Shown: positions 25,382 to 64,000 of the stretch, in pieces
Position numbering within the stretch: the stretch's first letter is position 1
Layout: every line of letters starts with the position of its first letter
Assembly: GCF_001676785.2 (NCBI RefSeq)
Contig: NZ_CP015910.2
Span: 1 to 64,000 of the forward strand
Source: Brachyspira hyodysenteriae ATCC 27164
GTDB taxonomy: Bacteria; Spirochaetota; Brachyspiria; Brachyspirales; Brachyspiraceae
Reading direction: 5' to 3'
DNA length: 64,000 nt
Notes under the pieces: model-generated
Told to the model about the DNA's origin: nothing
Database searches by the model: none
The model's input: only the letters and a program-made list of their open reading frames with translations
Program-made: the position numbers and the translations under genes

Positions 25382-25600
25382 TATTATAACTCCGAAAAAT
25401 ATTTTTATTGATATATTAAACTTCTCTATACGATTATCATTTTAATAAAAAATTGAGATAATTTTTAAAGTTTTTTAATCAATAGTGTTTCATACATTAT
25501 AGTAAATTTATAAATGTTTTTCAATATAACGATAATAAAAACTTGAATATTAAAGAATATAAAATATAATTAGTATCTATTTTTATATTAAGGTGCATAT

Positions 25601-52604: not shown

Positions 52605-53024
52605 CTATTTATTTTTTATTATAATATAAAGTCCAAAATGAATTATTAGCGATCCTATAACAATGCTTAGTATATAAGAAATACTATCAGAAAATGGAAG
52701 TTTTATATTGCTTGGTTCATCAGGATCATACCATAAAGGCAATTCATCTCCTACTTTTCTAAATGGATAATAACTTCTTAAAGTAGCATATAATGTTCCA
52801 TGATTATCAGCTTCATAGCTTATTACCATTGTTTTTTCATATCTAGTTTCTCCGGATTCATATACCCTTTTTCTTCTATCGCACTCTTCAACTACTCCTA
52901 CAGTATGAATATAATTTTTTGTATCAATAAAAGAAAACAATCCTGCTACACCATCCAATGTTAAAACTATTCCTGCAAAAACTATTAGTATTTTTCCTAT
53001 AATTGAAATTTTTTTTTTGTTCAT
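52605..53024 (-). CDS. DUF3592-type membrane protein
   Basis: The 139-residue protein has two membrane helices (~10-30 and ~112-135) flanking an extracytoplasmic beta domain with TVGVVEECDRRKRVY, VISYEADNHGTLYA and PLWYDPDEP, the layout of DUF3592. It is about 70% similar by eye to the plus-strand gene at 56543-56962, and the two point toward each other's flank in inverted arrangement. Function unknown. Confidence 0.8.
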   Translation of the reverse strand: MNKKKISIIGKILIVFAGIVLTLDGVAGLFSFIDTKNYIHTVGVVEECDRRKRVYESGETRYEKTMVISYEADNHGTLYATLRSYYPFRKVGDELPLWYDPDEPSNIKLPFSDSISYILSIVIGSLIIHFGLYIIIKNK

Positions 53025-56321: not shown

Positions 56322-56542
56322 ACTTCTTTTAGTATAGCATAAATTTTCAAAACTAAAAGTATTATAATGTATATTGATTTTTAGTTTTTATATGTTAGAA
56401 TCCTGATATAAATTTATGCAGTAAATACATTTTTATGAAGAAAGAATATTTTTAGTTTTTTGATAAATTTATTTCAAAAGATAATGTGTTTATTAAAGCA
56501 ATAACAAAAGTAAAATTATTAAAAAATAGTGTGTGGGTAATA

Positions 56543-56962
56543 ATGAATAGAAAAAAAATTTCAATTATAGAAAAAATATTAATATGTTCTGTAGGAATAG
56601 TTTTAACTTTTGATGGGGTAGTAGGATTCTTTTCTTTTATTAATACAAGAAATTATATTCATACTGTAGGAGTGGTTGAAGAGTTAGATAGAAAAAAAAT
56701 AGTATATAACCCTAGAAAAATTGGATATAAAAAGGTAATGGTAATAAGATATGAAACTGATAATCATGGAACATTATATGCTACTTTAAGAAGTCATTAT
56801 CCATTTAGAAAAGTAGGAGATGAATTGCCTTTATGGTATGATCCTGATGAACCAAAAAATATAAAACTTCCTTTTTCTGATAGTATTTCTTATATATTAA
56901 GCATTGTTATAGGAGTGCTAATAATTTATTTTGGAATTTTTATTGTAAATAAAAATAGATAG
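56543..56962 (+). CDS. DUF3592-type membrane protein, paralogue of 52605-53024
   Basis: The 139-residue protein has two membrane helices and the same extracytoplasmic core as its minus-strand paralogue (NYIHTVGVVEELDRKK, DNHGTLYATLR, PLWYDPDEPKNIKLPFSD). An upstream in-frame ATG at 56486 would add 19 residues that have no equivalent in the paralogue, so ATG 56543 is taken as the start. Function unknown. Confidence 0.8.
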   Translation: MNRKKISIIEKILICSVGIVLTFDGVVGFFSFINTRNYIHTVGVVEELDRKKIVYNPRKIGYKKVMVIRYETDNHGTLYATLRSHYPFRKVGDELPLWYDPDEPKNIKLPFSDSISYILSIVIGVLIIYFGIFIVNKNR

Positions 56963-57260: not shown

Positions 57261-57289
57261 TTGACAAAATTGATACTAAATAATAAAAT
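57261..57289 (+). promoter_or_regulatory. Promoter of the first structured RNA
   Basis: TTGACA (57261-57266), exact 17-bp spacer, TAAAAT (57284-57289). Expected transcription start is at 57296-57297, exactly where the closing stem of RNA 1 begins. Confidence 0.8.
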
Positions 57290-57296
57290 AAAAAGC

Positions 57297-57358
57297 AGAT
57301 TCCAACAGCAAAATAATATAAATCCATAAATACTGGGTTAAATGTAATCTAGTTTTTT
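57297..57358 (+). ncRNA. Structured small RNA candidate 1 upstream of the Ro60-like gene
   Basis: About 62 nt. The closing stem AGATT (57297-57301) pairs with AATCT (57346-57350), followed by AGTTTTTT as terminator tail. An inner hairpin AATCCA-TAAATAC-TGGGTT is present. The 5' segment AGATTCCAACAGCAA matches AGACACGAACAGCAA of RNA 2 at 12 of 15 positions, and both end in TCTAGTTTTT. The changed bases in the closing stems remain paired. Confidence 0.6.
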
Positions 57359-57378
57359 ATTTTGGAAATAATATTTTT

Positions 57379-57464
57379 TAGACACGAACAGCAATTTATT
57401 TTCTGGTAGTAAGAAGGTTCAACTCCTTTAGCCATTTTTAATGGTGTATATTGTGTCTAGTTTT
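57379..57464 (+). ncRNA. Y-RNA-like small RNA candidate 2 with tRNA T-arm mimic
   Basis: About 86 nt. The closing stem TAGACAC (57379-57385) pairs perfectly with GTGTCTA (57453-57459), followed by GTTTTT. Further pairing ACA/TGT above an internal loop is possible. Inside is a canonical tRNA T-arm, GAAGG-TTCAACT-CCTTT (57413-57429), extended by TGGT/GCCA. Bacterial Y RNAs bound by Ro proteins pair their ends and mimic tRNA; this RNA sits 78 bp before a Ro60-like gene. Confidence 0.65.
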
Positions 57465-57466
57465 TA

Positions 57467-57507
57467 ATTCTATGCTTATTTAATTATAGGCATAGAATAT
57501 TTTTTTA
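57467..57507 (+). terminator. Rho-independent terminator between the RNAs and the Ro60-like gene
   Basis: ATTCTATGC (57467-57475) and GCATAGAAT (57490-57498) pair perfectly, followed by ATTTTTTTA. It separates the RNA transcript from the protein gene or attenuates read-through. Confidence 0.85.
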
Positions 57508-57541: not shown

Positions 57542-59041
57542 ATGTCTTTTTTAGATTTGCTTAAAAATTCTTTTAATAAAACTTATACGCAGAATTTCGC
57601 TGATACTAATATTTCATCATTAAGCAATGTAATAGATTTATTTGCAACTATGGGAGCAAGCAGATTAAAAAAAGATGATGAATTATTAAAATATTTTATA
57701 GATGCTTGGAGAGAAAGTCCTGAACTTACAGCTAAATGTATAATGTATTTAAGAGATATAAGAAAAGGTATTGGCGAGAGAGAAGTTTTTAGAAAATATA
57801 TTAATATTATGATTAAACAAAATCATACTCTCACTGCAATAGAAATTTTAAAAACTATACCAGAGCTTGGAAGATGGGACGATATCATTTATATATGGTA
57901 TGAGAATAGAGAAAATAAAAATATTTCTAATTTTACAAAAAATATAATATTAGAGCAATTAGAAAAAGATAAAATTTCTAATAATGTTTCTCTTCTTGCT
58001 AAATGGCTTCCTAGTGAAAATACTTCATCAAAGAATACAAGAAATATTGCAAGAGAATTAATAAAACTTTTAAATATAAATACTAAAGAATATAGAAAAA
58101 CTTTATCTGCTTTAAGAAAGAAAATAAAAATAATAGAAAATAATTTAAGAGAAAAAGATTATACATTTAATTATTCTTCAGTTCCTTCGCTTGCTATGAG
58201 AAAATATTCAAAAGCATTTATTAGAAATGATGAAGAAAGATACAATAAATTTTTTGAAGATGTAAAGTCAGGAAAAGTTAAATTAAATACAAGCGTCTTA
58301 ACTCCTTTTGATGTTATAAGAGAGATTTTAGACTGTGCCGAGGAAGATATAGATTCAAGAAAAGAAGAATTCGATTTAACTTGGAAAAATCTTCCAAACA
58401 TTTTTGGAGATAGTAATTTAAATGCAATAGTAGCATGCGATGTATCTGGAAGTATGGGAATGGCTTTGAATGGGGAACCATTGATATGTTCTGTAGCTTT
58501 GGGAATATATATAGCACAGTTAAATAAATCTGCATTTCATAATCATTTTATAGATTTCTGCGGGGATTCTAAAATGCATGATATATCAAATATAAATAAT
58601 ATTGTTGATATAGTTGATTATGTTTTAAGATCATCTGTTGATTACAGTACAAATATAGATTCTGTATTTAAAGCTTTGCTTGATACTGCTATAAAAAATC
58701 ATGTACCGCATGAAGAACTTCCTAAATATATAATAATAATTTCTGATATGGAATTTAATCAATGCGAATTTCAAAATAAAACTAACTTTGAATATTGGAA
58801 AGAAATATTTAATAAAAATAATTATAAGCTTCCTAGAATAATTTTTTGGAATGTAAACTCATTAAGCAGAATAATGCCTGCTTTAAAAAATTATGATGTA
58901 TTATTTATTTCTGGAAGAAGTCAGAATGCTATAAAAAATATAATCAATATAGACAAATACGATTTAACAAATCAAGATGAAATCTCAATGCTTTTAATAC
59001 TTGATACTTTAAAAGATTATAATATTGATATAAAGGATTGA
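57542..59041 (+). CDS. Ro60-like protein: DUF2828/TROVE-like helical domain plus vWA domain
   Basis: The 499-residue protein has a helical-repeat N-terminal half (~20-270) with LFATMGASR, KCIMYLRDIRKGIGEREVFRKY, LGRWDDIIYIW, SLLAKWLPSENTSSKNTR and VPSLAMRKYSKAF, the pattern of DUF2828. A von Willebrand A domain follows (~292-490) with an intact MIDAS (ACDVSGSMG, then a Thr/Asp in STNIDSV and IIISDMEF). Ro60/Rsr proteins have the same helical-ring plus vWA architecture and bind Y RNAs and misfolded RNAs. Two structured RNAs with a tRNA-like arm lie immediately upstream, which supports an RNA-binding role. The start follows TAGGAGAA. Confidence 0.85.
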   Translation: MSFLDLLKNSFNKTYTQNFADTNISSLSNVIDLFATMGASRLKKDDELLKYFIDAWRESPELTAKCIMYLRDIRKGIGEREVFRKYINIMIKQNHTLTAIEILKTIPELGRWDDIIYIWYENRENKNISNFTKNIILEQLEKDKISNNVSLLAKWLPSENTSSKNTRNIARELIKLLNINTKEYRKTLSALRKKIKIIENNLREKDYTFNYSSVPSLAMRKYSKAFIRNDEERYNKFFEDVKSGKVKLNTSVLTPFDVIREILDCAEEDIDSRKEEFDLTWKNLPNIFGDSNLNAIVACDVSGSMGMALNGEPLICSVALGIYIAQLNKSAFHNHFIDFCGDSKMHDISNINNIVDIVDYVLRSSVDYSTNIDSVFKALLDTAIKNHVPHEELPKYIIIISDMEFNQCEFQNKTNFEYWKEIFNKNNYKLPRIIFWNVNSLSRIMPALKNYDVLFISGRSQNAIKNIINIDKYDLTNQDEISMLLILDTLKDYNIDIKD

Positions 59042-59751: not shown

Positions 59752-60993
59752 ATGCAAAATATAGAAAATAAACAATCTAAAATAGAAAAAATTATTGAAG
59801 AATATGATAATAAATTGAAAGATAAAAACAGAGAGATAGAAAAATTAAATGATGAATTAAACAGAGTATCTACTAATAATTATAATTCAGGCATTCCAAA
59901 TGTGATATCAAATAGGGGAGATGAAAGCGATGATTTTTCATTTCCTTATAAATGGGCATTAACTTGTAAGAGAATGGAGAACTCTATTTATCTTGAGCCT
60001 ATACTTCAGTTTTATAGAGGAGTTTTTAATTCTTTTAATTATTTTGTAGAGAAGCCAAAAGAATGCGAAGATAATGAAAAAGTAAACAATGCATATAACT
60101 TTTTTATAAGCCAATTTGAAAGAGCAGGCGGACTTAAAAACTTAATAGTTAATGTTTCTTACAATGCATTAGTTTACGGATTTTGTTTTTTTACTCCTAA
60201 ATTAGAAGTCTTGCCTGCTAAGGTTTACGGATTTAAAGGAAGACTTGACGGTTTAAAAGGATTTAAATATTATGATCCTTCTTCAATATATAGATTCAAT
60301 TTTGATGAGTATGACAGCGATGAAATAAAAAGTATAAGCATTATAAAAAGACATAAAGAAATTTTTAATGCTTATTATAATTATGATGAAGCAAGTATTA
60401 TAGATATAGATTTTGATTTAGCATTAGCAGGATATGCAAGTTACGGAAGTATTGAAGGCGATATTATAGGAAAGCCTTTTTTATACAGTGCATATTCACT
60501 TTGGCAGATTTTAGAATCTATGGATAATAGTTTCAACCGTAATTTAAAAAATATAGGTGAGCATAGTTTTAATTTTATAGCGAACACTGAACTTAATGAT
60601 TCAAAGCGTAAGGAGGCAGAGCGTGAAATAAGAAATTTTATAAATAACGGCGGCGGAATTTTTATTTCCAAATACGGCAAAATAGAAAAAATAGAAAGTA
60701 TTGATGCTAATGAATGGTATAATTTTAGAGACAGCATGCTTTCCACCTTGTTCAAAAATAAAGGTGTAGATATTAAAGCACTTGGTCTAAACAAAGGGGC
60801 TACTAAATCATTAGCGGAACTTACTCAGGATAATGCCCTTCTTATGGCAAGCGATATAGTTTCAGGTATAATCAATTATATAAATAATAGTTTTATTAAA
60901 AGATATTTTGATTTGAATTTCAAAAGTTTAAGACTGTCAGGACAATGCGACTATTTCAGGATTTCTCATTCTATAATTAATAAATCAGAATAA
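59752..60993 (+). CDS. Phage portal protein (DUF935-like)
   Basis: The 413-residue protein starts with a coiled coil (~1-45). The portal core follows: KRMENSIYLEPILQFYRGVFNSF, ALVYGFCFFTPKLE (wing strands), GFKYYDPSSIYRFNFDEYD, a helical stem around FLYSAYSLWQILESMDNSFNRN and KGVDIKALGLNKGATKSLAELTQDN. Portals form the dodecameric ring at the capsid vertex through which DNA enters. Within the window the order is portal, protease/scaffold, decoration, capsid, the standard head-module order. No terminase gene is next to it. Confidence 0.8.
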   Translation: MQNIENKQSKIEKIIEEYDNKLKDKNREIEKLNDELNRVSTNNYNSGIPNVISNRGDESDDFSFPYKWALTCKRMENSIYLEPILQFYRGVFNSFNYFVEKPKECEDNEKVNNAYNFFISQFERAGGLKNLIVNVSYNALVYGFCFFTPKLEVLPAKVYGFKGRLDGLKGFKYYDPSSIYRFNFDEYDSDEIKSISIIKRHKEIFNAYYNYDEASIIDIDFDLALAGYASYGSIEGDIIGKPFLYSAYSLWQILESMDNSFNRNLKNIGEHSFNFIANTELNDSKRKEAEREIRNFINNGGGIFISKYGKIEKIESIDANEWYNFRDSMLSTLFKNKGVDIKALGLNKGATKSLAELTQDNALLMASDIVSGIINYINNSFIKRYFDLNFKSLRLSGQCDYFRISHSIINKSE

Positions 60994-61064
60994 GACTGAA
61001 TATTGAATAAAATTAAAATAAAAGTCTTGGTATTAATTTACTGAGACTTTTTTGTTTTGCCGTA

Positions 61065-61101
61065 ACTTATAATCACTTATATTTTTTGCTATAGGTATAG
61101 A
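61065..61101 (+). promoter_or_regulatory. Shared 37-bp promoter/operator element before the protease gene
   Basis: ACTTATAATCA, CTTATATTTTTT, GCTATAGG, TATAGA. A second, partial copy (ACTTTTTTGCTATAGATATAGAGATAAT) lies at 61224-61251, nearer to the gene start. Confidence 0.7.
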
Positions 61102-61194
61102 GATAATAAATAATCTCTGACTGCTTACAGCATTAAATAAAATAATGATTGGTATTAAACTGCACATATTTTTGGATTTGTATAATAATAAGTA

Positions 61195-61225
61195 TTACCG
61201 TGCGGGATGCCAGTACGGCGAGTAC
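61195..61225. repeat. Short GC-rich repeat remnant
   Basis: TTACCGTGCGGGATGCCAGTACGGCGAGTAC combines a GCACG-type box with the TACGGC...AGTA motif of the 33955-34020 and 59470-59545 sub-elements. It stands between the two copies of the promoter-like segment. Confidence 0.5.
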
Positions 61226-61291
61226 TTTTTTGCTATAGATATAGAGATAATTAAAAATCATTTCAATATAATTAATTTTTAAGGAGATAAA

Positions 61292-62245
61292 ATGATTAAA
61301 AAGAAATATAAAATTTTAGGTGATAGTTTCAAGCAGTATATACCGCTTTCAAAAAATACTTTTGCTGAAACTAAAACTAATAAAATCACAGAAAAAAATA
61401 TTGATGAGCTAATCAAATCATTTGAAAAAAAGAGCATAGAAATATTTGTCTATAAAGGGCATAAAGAAGATGAAGAAAGAGATGCTATTGGAAAAGTTGT
61501 AAGTTTAGAAAAAGATAATGAGTTTGTCGGACTTTATGCTGTTATAGAATGGTTTGATGACAGCATAACGGAGAAAAAATCTTTTTATCCTTCTATTGAG
61601 ATGGTTGGAAAAAAATCTTATGAAGATGAAAATTTTATTTACTGGGAAAATTGTGAAATAAAAGCTGTTGCTGCTGTAGAATATCCTGCAAGCCGTAATG
61701 TTGATTTGCTTTGTGCTAGTGCAATTATCAGTAATGAAGAAAATATTAATGGGGAGTATATGCAAAAATTAAAAAATGTATTAGAAAAATTAATTAGCGA
61801 AGAAAAAGAAATTCAAAAAGAAGCAATAGATGAGTTTGTTTATTTGTTTAGAAATGATGAAGAAATTCAAAATATTATCATTGATATGATAGTGAAGAAA
61901 TTAAAAGAGGATAATTCAAATGATAAATCAAGTAATGCAGATAAACAAATTTCAAATAATTCAGATAACAGCAATAAAGAATTAAATCTATCAGCTATAA
62001 CTTATGGAGATTGGTGCAATGAATACGCCGAGAGTCAGAATGCAGTTAGATGTTCTTCAAAATCAGAAAGCTCTACATTTATAAAAGCAAGAAAACTTTT
62101 CAAAGCAGGATTAAGCAAAGAAGAAATAATGTCAATAGTAAGAAATGATTTAGTACCTATCGGAGTAGGAGGCGGAGAGAAAATCAACTTATCAGCATTA
62201 AGCGAAGAGAACAAATACAGCGAGATAGCAAAACTATTTAAATGA
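61292..62245 (+). CDS. Head maturation protease/scaffold protein (Mu gpI-like)
   Basis: The 317-residue protein has an N-terminal protease-like domain (~1-145) with YKGHKEDEERDAIGKVVSLEK, GLYAVIEWFDDS, FYPSIEM and KAVAAVEYPASRNVDLL, the layout of Mu-like protease I proteins. A helical, charged region follows (~150-235), as expected of an internal scaffold. The end (KARKLFKAGLSKEEIMSIVRNDL) is a helical tail. It likely directs capsid assembly and then cleaves itself and the scaffold. A strong AAGGAG precedes the start. Confidence 0.65.
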   Translation: MIKKKYKILGDSFKQYIPLSKNTFAETKTNKITEKNIDELIKSFEKKSIEIFVYKGHKEDEERDAIGKVVSLEKDNEFVGLYAVIEWFDDSITEKKSFYPSIEMVGKKSYEDENFIYWENCEIKAVAAVEYPASRNVDLLCASAIISNEENINGEYMQKLKNVLEKLISEEKEIQKEAIDEFVYLFRNDEEIQNIIIDMIVKKLKEDNSNDKSSNADKQISNNSDNSNKELNLSAITYGDWCNEYAESQNAVRCSSKSESSTFIKARKLFKAGLSKEEIMSIVRNDLVPIGVGGGEKINLSALSEENKYSEIAKLFK

Positions 62246-62389
62246 TAATTATAAAATTATATTCATTGAAAAACTATTGATATTAACTATACGAATTCAT
62301 TTTTTGCTTCTTATTTGTAGGCTAGTTTTGTTTACCGTAAATGAAATTTAAAAGCTAATTATGAAGTAAATTTATTATAAATAGTATTT

Positions 62390-62447
62390 GTTCAACTTTT
62401 TTCCGCCGCACACTACAAGTGGGCTTCGCCAAAGTTGCAAAAAGTGA
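62390..62447. repeat. Family B repeat fragment
   Basis: TTCAACTTTTTTCCGCCGCAC, CTACAAGTGGGCTTCGCCAAAGTTGC matches the end of the family B repeats. It sits between the protease and decoration genes. Confidence 0.65.
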
Positions 62448-62515
62448 AAGTATAAAATTGATAGATTATAAATTTTTTCAAATATAAAAATTATAATAAA
62501 TTTAACGGAGTTTGA

Positions 62516-62884
62516 ATGGCACAAGGTTCTATAATAAAAGCTGGTATTCATAGCGATGAAGCTAATTTACCAAAAAGAGGATTTCCTGTATCAATAAAAG
62601 ATGATAATGGGAAAGGAGTTTTTTCACTTTATAGTGAAGGTTCAGTATTTGTAGGAGTTGCTTTGGAAGATGCATTCTCTTATAAAGAATTCGGATTAAA
62701 GCCAAATACAATATCAGTATGCTATGAAGGAATAGTGAATGCAGTTGTAGCTGAAAGCGTTATAGCTGGCGATATTGTAACGGCATCAGATAAAGGATTC
62801 AAAAAATCATTAGACGGACATGGAGTAGGAATAGTTATAAGAGGCGGAAGTAATTATGCAGAGATACTTTTAAAAAGTTTATAA
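62516..62884 (+). CDS. Capsid decoration/cement protein (DUF2190-like)
   Basis: This 122-residue, Gly- and Val-rich, all-beta protein contains LPKRGFPVSIKDDNGKGVFSLYSEGSVFVGVALEDA and VCYEGIVNAVVAESVIAGDIVTASDKGFKKS, the size and pattern of phage decoration proteins (DUF2190/lambda gpD-like). It lies just before the major capsid gene, which is its usual place. The start follows AACGGAG. Confidence 0.7.
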   Translation: MAQGSIIKAGIHSDEANLPKRGFPVSIKDDNGKGVFSLYSEGSVFVGVALEDAFSYKEFGLKPNTISVCYEGIVNAVVAESVIAGDIVTASDKGFKKSLDGHGVGIVIRGGSNYAEILLKSL

Positions 62885-62927
62885 TATTAATTTCTTATAA
62901 CTTATTAAATATAGTTTTTTATTTTTT

Positions 62928-63040
62928 ATATATCTAAACAACTATATTTTATTAATTTTTTAATGTTCTTTTTCCCGCCGCACGCCATAGGCGGACAGCG
63001 TCAAAGAACCAGACGAAGTCCGCCTGCGGCGAAAGTGCAA
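62928..63040. repeat. Family B repeat with promoter-like end
   Basis: TATATATCTAAACAACTATATTTTATTAA is the reverse complement of the repeat-borne promoter (minus strand; -35 degraded to TTAATA). It is followed by TCCCGCCGCACGCCATAGGCGGACAGCGTC and ACGAAGTCCGCCTGCGGCG hairpins. It sits between decoration and capsid genes. Confidence 0.65.
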
Positions 63041-63189
63041 ATATAAAATTAGAATTTATTATATTGAGTATTTTATATTCATAGCTAATTATTATTTTTA
63101 ATATAAAAATAAGTCTTTTTGTTTCTTGCTGTATGTGGGATGTACCTGCGGCGTGTATAATCAAAATTTAATTTATAAAGGATTCAAAT

Positions 63190-64000
63190 ATGAGTATACC
63201 TAATTTACAAAATATACAAAATAAACTTTTTCCAATAATCAATAAAGAAATGCCTAGATATATGGGGCAGACTAATTTCGTAAGTAAATATATACCTGAA
63301 ATTTTTGTTGGTGTTTCTCAAGGAGCTATTGGAGGCGATTTAGATAATACAGCTTTCAATTTAAAAAATATGTATGGAGGTACTTCATTAGGAGATTTAA
63401 ATATTTTTAATGAGTATCCTAAACATGAGGCAAGAGTTTTTAAAATGGAGCCTGAAGAATATTATATTGGAATAGATATTAACAGAATAGAAGAAATCAA
63501 TGAGCTTTATGCAAGAGATGAGAAAAAAGCAGGAGAAGAAATTTTAAATTATATTGCACAAAAACTTGTTTCAAGACTTGGGCTTTTAAGAGAAAGAAAT
63601 TTAGCGGCAAAAGTTACAGATGCAGAACTTTATGGAAGCACAAACACTGTTGATTTAAGTGCCAAACCAATAAGCACTTGGACAGAGGCTGATATTGATA
63701 ATTTCTTTTCTTCATTTATAGATTTGGCAAAATATTTGAATTATGCTGTAGGTGGAAATTTATTTAATGATAAAATGGAGCTTCAGGATAATGGACAGAA
63801 ACTTTATATAGTTATTCCAATAGATGTTTATATAAAACTTCAAGGGTTATTTAGATTATTTTCTAATTATATATCAATGATAGGAAATGATGCTAATGGA
63901 AAATATAAAGCATTCAGACCAGATATTTTTAATGCAGTAACAAGCGGAATCACTGTTGTAGGAACTGCATTCAGAGTTGCTGATGATCATGAAGTTGATC
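63190..64000 (+). CDS. Phage major capsid protein (partial, cut by the window end)
   Basis: An open frame from ATG 63190 (MSIPNLQNIQNKLFPIINKE) runs at least 270 codons to the edge. It has MEPEEYYIGIDINRIEEINELYARDEKKAG, QKLYIVIPIDVYIKLQGLFRLF and VTSGITVVGTAFRVADDHE, consistent with an HK97-fold capsid protein of the Mu/VSH-1 type. Position after decoration protein and size fit the main shell protein; in VSH-1 the main head protein is about 38 kDa. An AAAGGA site lies 7 bp upstream. Confidence 0.75.
   Translation, partial: MSIPNLQNIQNKLFPIINKEMPRYMGQTNFVSKYIPEIFVGVSQGAIGGDLDNTAFNLKNMYGGTSLGDLNIFNEYPKHEARVFKMEPEEYYIGIDINRIEEINELYARDEKKAGEEILNYIAQKLVSRLGLLRERNLAAKVTDAELYGSTNTVDLSAKPISTWTEADIDNFFSSFIDLAKYLNYAVGGNLFNDKMELQDNGQKLYIVIPIDVYIKLQGLFRLFSNYISMIGNDANGKYKAFRPDIFNAVTSGITVVGTAFRVADDHEVD

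Follow-up and report, generated by a model that had tools for sequence, protein, structure and literature searches.

Near the end of a 64,000-nucleotide stretch of the Brachyspira hyodysenteriae ATCC 27164 genome (contig NZ_CP015910.2, positions 1 to 64,000; hereafter the window), two small tandem RNAs had been predicted from the letters of the DNA and described as a duplicated, structured, non-coding RNA family without a name. Which molecules do these RNAs work with, and to what end? We found that they stand directly upstream of a gene for a protein with the fold of Ro60 and that they have relatives beside such genes in Brachyspira, other bacteria and phages, which supports their description as a family. 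The core function of Ro60, an autoantigen in humans, is still debated, and Ro-like proteins are also encoded by phages. We consider it likely that the two RNAs, RNA 1 and RNA 2, are Y-RNA-like partners of the Ro60-like ring encoded downstream, working with it in the quality control of tRNA or structured RNA. The identity of the neighbouring gene, a tRNA-like T arm in RNA 2 and the larger arrays common in the family go beyond the original prediction.

Two tandem RNAs precede a gene for a Ro60-like protein

All elements of the locus lie on the forward strand. A sigma-70-type promoter, TTGACA-N17-TAAAAT (57261-57289), carries 11 of the 12 consensus bases and is the best in the region; the same arrangement precedes RNA 1 in other Brachyspira loci. 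RNA 1 (57297-57358) starts at 57297, 8 nucleotides 3′ of the promoter end, exactly as had been claimed. Its closing stem pairs AGATT (57297-57301) with AATCT (57346-57350) and is followed in this genome by a C·U mismatch (57302/57345); other Brachyspira copies of RNA 1 read GGAATCT and have a complete 7-bp closing stem. The strand ACAGCAA (57305-57311), a short insert and a U run make up the remainder. RNA 2 (57379-57465) was likewise confirmed, except that its closing stem begins 1 nucleotide later than had been stated: AGACACG (57380-57386) and TGTGTCT (57452-57458) form 7 bp including one G·U, with an extra U-A pair outside, and enclose ACAGCAA (57388-57394) and a tRNA-like insert, a U run again forming the end. 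The matching ends claimed for the two RNAs are thus present, each with a closing stem and with ACAGCAA located one base inside it, and the AGAYNCNAACAGCAA pattern occurs twice genome-wide, both times at this locus. The strong terminator predicted at the end of the region (57467-57498) also held up, with a 13-bp stem followed by a U run, zero such stems expected in shuffles and a z score of -6.3 when folded alone; folding of the entire region gave a z of -4.0.

The Ro-like gene (57542-59041) begins 77 bases after the end of RNA 2 and encodes 499 amino acids. A Pfam scan identified DUF2828 and DUF7788 in its product, and PHROGs matched it to an RNA-binding protein family. An AlphaFold2 model built from 52 homologues (predicted local distance difference test score 86.6) shows helical repeats arranged in a ring that a vWA domain closes, and it aligned over its full length with Ro60 (2i91; Z 21.6, 426 residues, 12% identity). 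Foldseek matched the model to 1yvp at an E value of 2.8e-7, and D. radiodurans Rsr scored Z 12.9, whereas the first non-Ro structural matches covered the vWA part only, with Z below 10. Moreover, the metal-site motif DxSxS is present as DVSGSM, with D300, S302 and S304 invariant in the 52 homologues. Compared with the TROVE-family proteins Ro60 and Rsr (PF05731; PDB 2i91, 1yvp, 2nvo), the protein therefore shares the ring-plus-vWA fold over 405-427 aligned residues but is about 12% identical, and searches of the PDB by sequence, both single and profile, returned nothing relevant. Since the likeness to Ro60 is seen by fold and is absent from the PDB sequence search, we regard the protein as a relative at the fold level and not as a TROVE member by profile. 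PADLOC returned no defence match. DUF2828 proteins are encoded in at least 680 phage records, and this domain family of unknown function would thereby gain an identity and an RNA partner.

The RNAs accompany the gene and covary

The original prediction anticipated that matches would adjoin the same protein gene and keep their closing stems, as they do within Brachyspira and also in other bacteria and phages. Of 26 Brachyspira genomes, 15 contain the Ro-like gene, or parts of it, in a close copy; a DNA search recovered the RNAs in 15/15 genomes with the gene and in 0/10 without it, with one gene-less genome giving a single 24-base match at an E value of 4e-4. Genome G023 has only a 39% relative of the gene, on a contig that is possibly foreign, and an RNA of the same design lies upstream of it. 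Two Brachyspira species carry an additional, third RNA, which is a copy of RNA 2 that has diverged. When 14 distinct Brachyspira copies were aligned by sequence anchors, 96.4% of the stem cells paired, and 20 double changes were counted against 8.5 in shuffles and 0-4 in slid controls, a count that partly includes the difference between RNA 1 and RNA 2 already seen in the original prediction. This covariation bears out the claim that the stem differences are compensated and both closing stems kept. Separately, genome G005 carries extra fragments of the 3′ end of the Ro-like gene at several places (L011, L018, L019, L020); at L011, one such tail end immediately precedes the promoter of RNA 1, pointing to duplication at this locus.

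Beyond Brachyspira, a scan with one genome per species gave 79 loci, nearly all of them preceded, on the gene strand, by copies of a motif that ends in ACAGCAA. Within 1 kb upstream of 94 DUF2828 genes of bacteria and phages, we counted 219 RNAs with a closing stem, where dinucleotide shuffles gave 13. The result was repeated in 65 distinct viral loci, an independent set, with 102 RNAs; shuffles gave 6 and the reverse strand 5. The common design consists of a covarying closing stem of 7-8 bp, ACAGCAA, a variable insert, the 3′ strand and a G, the last directly following the 3′ strand in 103 of 120 RNAs. One to eight such RNAs stand in tandem per locus, at a median spacing of 32 nucleotides, and their stems differ in 306 of 318 tandem copy pairs. 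In a 28-sequence alignment of RNA ends, double changes occurred in 7 of 8 stem pairs, a count biased upward by the choice of the 3′ strand by complementarity; the covariation score of 0.76 compares with 0.30 for shuffles and no more than 0.20 for slid alignments. The fair tests of covariation are the comparison of 219 RNAs with 13 in shuffles and the Brachyspira alignment. A general purine/pyrimidine stem pattern of the family fails to catch the RNAs of the window itself, so the family is best defined as ACAGCAA plus pairing. Rfam, run at the gathering score and at a permissive E value, returned no relevant family in the window or in 20 relative loci, tRNA excepted. The family of tandem RNAs beside a Ro60 relative is widespread and apparently unnamed.

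The position of the RNAs also bears on whether they could be cis-regulatory leaders, that is, attenuators or protein-binding sites through which the Ro-like gene controls itself. In Brachyspira they lie directly 5′ of the gene with a terminator between, and RNA-binding proteins commonly autoregulate. Among the DUF2828 genes, however, 14 loci have no RNAs within 1 kb upstream and mostly have them farther upstream (several beyond an RtcB gene) or, in phages, downstream. RNAs downstream of the gene or within tRNA clusters in several phages, RNAs that in some bacteria stand over 1 kb upstream and are separated from the gene by another one, and up to eight copies with differing stems and inserts do not suit a leader, whose function would moreover have no need of the tRNA mimicry described below. 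We consider such a role improbable.

Many inserts imitate parts of tRNAs

The insert of RNA 2 contains a T-arm mimic (57413-57429), GAAGG-UUCAACU-CCUUU, with 5 bp and a canonical T loop, which the main copies of RNA 2 elsewhere in Brachyspira retain, some of them with the loop UUCAAAU. On its 3′ side, the hairpin CCAUU-UUU-AAUGG (57432-57444) occupies the acceptor-arm position of permuted tRNAs and, judging by that position, may correspond to an acceptor arm. Inspection of RNA 2 for a YrlA-like module thus found the T arm and the following hairpin, without a clear D arm. A candidate anticodon arm in RNA 2 (UUAUU-UUCUGGU-AGUAA) was rejected because its loop and stem differ between species.

Mimicry was counted in 235 non-Brachyspira RNAs, with 100 shuffles providing the expectation for anticodon-type hairpins. 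T-arm hairpins numbered 40 against 0.3 expected, and 5-bp hairpins with an anticodon-type loop YU-NNN-R-N numbered 44 against 4.0 (shuffle maximum 9); the strict anticodon-hairpin form was found 35 times against 2.0. The 65 viral loci replicated both results, with 12 T arms against 0.1 and 23 anticodon-type hairpins against 1.8. Furthermore, ARAGORN detected ordinary tRNAs inside 8 inserts and, only after the insert was doubled, 6 more, which are circularly permuted; none were detected in shuffles. The viral array L223 presents hairpins for Lys-UUU, Phe-GAA, Tyr-GUA and Cys-GCA, and its Lys hairpin, ACAAA-CUUUUAA-UUUGU, differs from the arm of the same virus's tRNA-Lys, UCAAA-CUUUUAA-UUUGA, in the outer pair alone. 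Exact copying from host tRNAs was rejected for the anticodon hairpin CTTGCTTTCGGGGCAAG, which gave one match in each of four genomes and so has no further copy in a tRNA gene. The loop of CTTGCTTTCGGGGCAAG can also be read as a UUCG-type loop, which accounts for only 5 of the 44 hairpins. The inserts of L074, L079, L113, L115 and L126 share the anticodon-position hairpin CUUGC-UUUCGGG-GCAAG across different genomes, once with another stem, and four of these genomes contain no second exact copy of it.

Phage Ro-like genes and their RNAs often adjoin tRNA clusters, and many phage copies lie within or near them, as would be expected if the inserts were decayed tRNA genes or chance fragments of neighbouring clusters without function. 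Yet the inserts are held in an intact covarying frame with an invariant ACAGC, isolated anticodon hairpins retain perfect stems and loops, the hairpin that resembles the virus's own tRNA arm differs from it by a compensated outer pair only, and the Brachyspira RNA pair is conserved between species. Functionless debris is, on this evidence, very improbable. The copies of tRNA pieces in many members suggest a tRNA protection or repair system.

Relatives link the RNAs to RNA repair genes

In the stretches examined around the gene in 71 non-Brachyspira bacterial loci, which are phylogenetically non-independent, RtcB was present in 31, WCX regulators in 26, WYL regulators in 25 and RlaP in 7. A recurrent cluster, seen for example at L060, L074, L103, L126 and L128, combines WYL and WCX regulators, an RNA array, DUF2828, RtcB and sometimes RlaP, and resembles an RNA-repair operon with its own regulators.

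Much of this theme has precedents: Y RNAs, the tRNA mimicry of YrlA, Ro-like phage proteins and the link to repair operons are already known. As with bacterial Y RNAs and YrlA beside Rsr, the DUF2828-linked RNAs are small, tandem and adjacent to a gene for a Ro60-fold protein, with paired 5′ and 3′ ends, and many contain a T arm and a circularly permuted tRNA module like that of YrlA. In contrast to the YrlA/Rsr systems, the protein is DUF2828/DUF7788 and not TROVE, the RNAs have their own strand ACAGCAA and no Rfam match, and they form arrays of up to eight, among whose inserts are isolated anticodon stem-loops and complete tRNAs with their parts in the ordinary order. Damaged tRNA induces the Salmonella rsr-yrlBA-rtcBA operon (PMC7790460), which shares its RtcB linkage with many DUF2828 relatives, whereas WYL/WCX regulators take the place of RtcR at DUF2828 loci.

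The study of Listeria phage CKA15 linked its DUF2828 protein, CKA15_055, to Rsr through HHpred, detected the protein by mass spectrometry in purified particles and proposed Y RNAs nearby (PMC12282133). The abundant RNAs reported for that phage (CKA15_059-061, 26388-26698; PMC12282133) were rejected as family members because the motif is absent. Directly upstream of the DUF2828 gene of CKA15 (OR088597.1), at about 25385-25543, we found three motif-bearing RNAs with their own TTGACA/TATCAT promoter-like site. According to the accessible part of another article, Ro-like proteins are annotated in mycobacteriophages and jumbo phages, and a platform for RNA repair with a tRNA-like partner has been proposed; these proteins are of the same class or fold as DUF2828, and cognate RNA arrays or a signature are not described in that part (PMC7824862). 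Our literature search, whose reach did not extend to the central Y RNA papers, found no account of a DUF2828-specific RNA signature, arrays or anticodon hairpins. Chen et al. 2014 is said to list Y RNAs in diverse bacteria and mycobacteriophages, with which a partial overlap is possible.

A proposed particle and its possible role

Fold, motif, covariation, the co-occurrence of RNAs and gene, the tRNA mimicry of the family and the linkage of relatives to RtcB, WYL and RlaP are established by computation, and from them expression, binding and biological role are inferred. The closing stem and ACAGCAA are the sole parts common to all members, and for this reason we predict that the Ro-like ring grips the covarying stem and the invariant strand and leaves the insert exposed. 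Transcribed from their promoter, RNA 1 and RNA 2 would thus very probably be partners of the Ro-like protein. The insert of RNA 2 would present its T arm, and those of relatives permuted tRNAs, whole tRNAs or anticodon stem-loops; such mimics may bring enzymes that act on tRNA (nucleases, modifying enzymes, a repair ligase) to the ring or keep them occupied. Quality control of tRNA or structured RNA is the most likely role of such a particle, and a specific role in tRNA repair or as a decoy is a tentative reading that falls somewhat short of an even chance.

Several observations weigh against this picture. RNA 1 has no recognisable tRNA-like part, and alone it folds no better than shuffles (z -0.96), with a minimum-energy fold that lacks the closing stem; RNA 2 alone does moderately better than shuffles (z -2.0), and the case for both therefore depends on the comparative evidence. 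RtcB is absent from the window and lies at 436 kb in this genome, not adjoining the Ro-like gene, and its presence across Brachyspira follows that gene only loosely. The Pfam scan gave no TROVE (PF05731) match for the protein up to an E value of 1, nor any genome-wide. Across the family, roughly one insert in two lacks a recognisable tRNA part. Finally, several TROVE-type loci (Gordonia, Streptomyces, Xanthomonas and Rhizobium phages, Bacillus phage G) have unannotated tandem RNAs with approximately GNUGCGR-N7-GUUACUUC, a motif read by eye and without statistics. In several of these RNAs, a T arm is followed by acceptor and D arms, forming permuted tRNA modules, and in nine TROVE-type loci, mostly of phages (L147-L155), the upstream region lacks an ACAGC array. 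The contrast suggests that the RNA end recognised is particular to each Ro lineage, the mimicry theme being common to the lineages.

The inserts without a tRNA part, varying between copies, could be expected of guide or antisense RNAs that pair with targets. The clear tRNA parts of other inserts are explained more simply otherwise, and we regard this alternative as very improbable. The same inserts, and RNA 1, would suit RYPER-type Y RNAs, in which the RNA tethers the Ro-like ring to the exoribonuclease PNPase so that structured RNA is degraded, without any particular connection to damaged tRNA. Of the roles of bacterial Ro60 and Y RNA, this one has been studied best (reviewed in PMC4726728 and PMC8394870); it leaves the arrays of differing anticodon stem-loops and the linkage to RtcB and RlaP unexplained. 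We judge it unlikely as the whole account, though a serious competitor; it is compatible with the favoured partnership of RNAs and ring as regards binding and differs from it on the role. A role in tRNA damage is favoured by the recurring anticodon hairpins and the link to RtcB, and tethering by the RYPER precedent. For Brachyspira, which has two RNAs and encodes RtcB at another genomic site, a general role in RNA quality control is equally possible.

More speculatively, and with rather more doubt than confidence, we propose that DUF2828 loci encode arrays of tRNA-part mimics, covering many anticodons, on a Ro60-like ring coupled to RtcB and RlaP, which would give phages and bacteria decoy-and-repair resistance to anticodon nucleases and to other weapons that cut tRNA. 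A second Ro lineage, distinguished by an RNA signature of its own and by anticodon-mimicking arrays that stand beside RNA-repair genes, leads to a direct and testable proposal, namely that Ro particles show tRNA mimics to the enzymes that cut or mend tRNA.

Neighbouring genes

Just 5′ of the RNAs, a small membrane-protein gene (56486-56962, forward strand) with a weak DUF3592 match has a paralogue a few kb away on the opposite strand (52605-53024), and several other Brachyspira have related sequence upstream of their RNAs. On the 3′ side of the Ro-like gene, the remainder of the window (59752-64000) holds genes without a confident family match that look phage-like by eye, and a relative of the first of these also adjoins the Ro-like gene in other Brachyspira.
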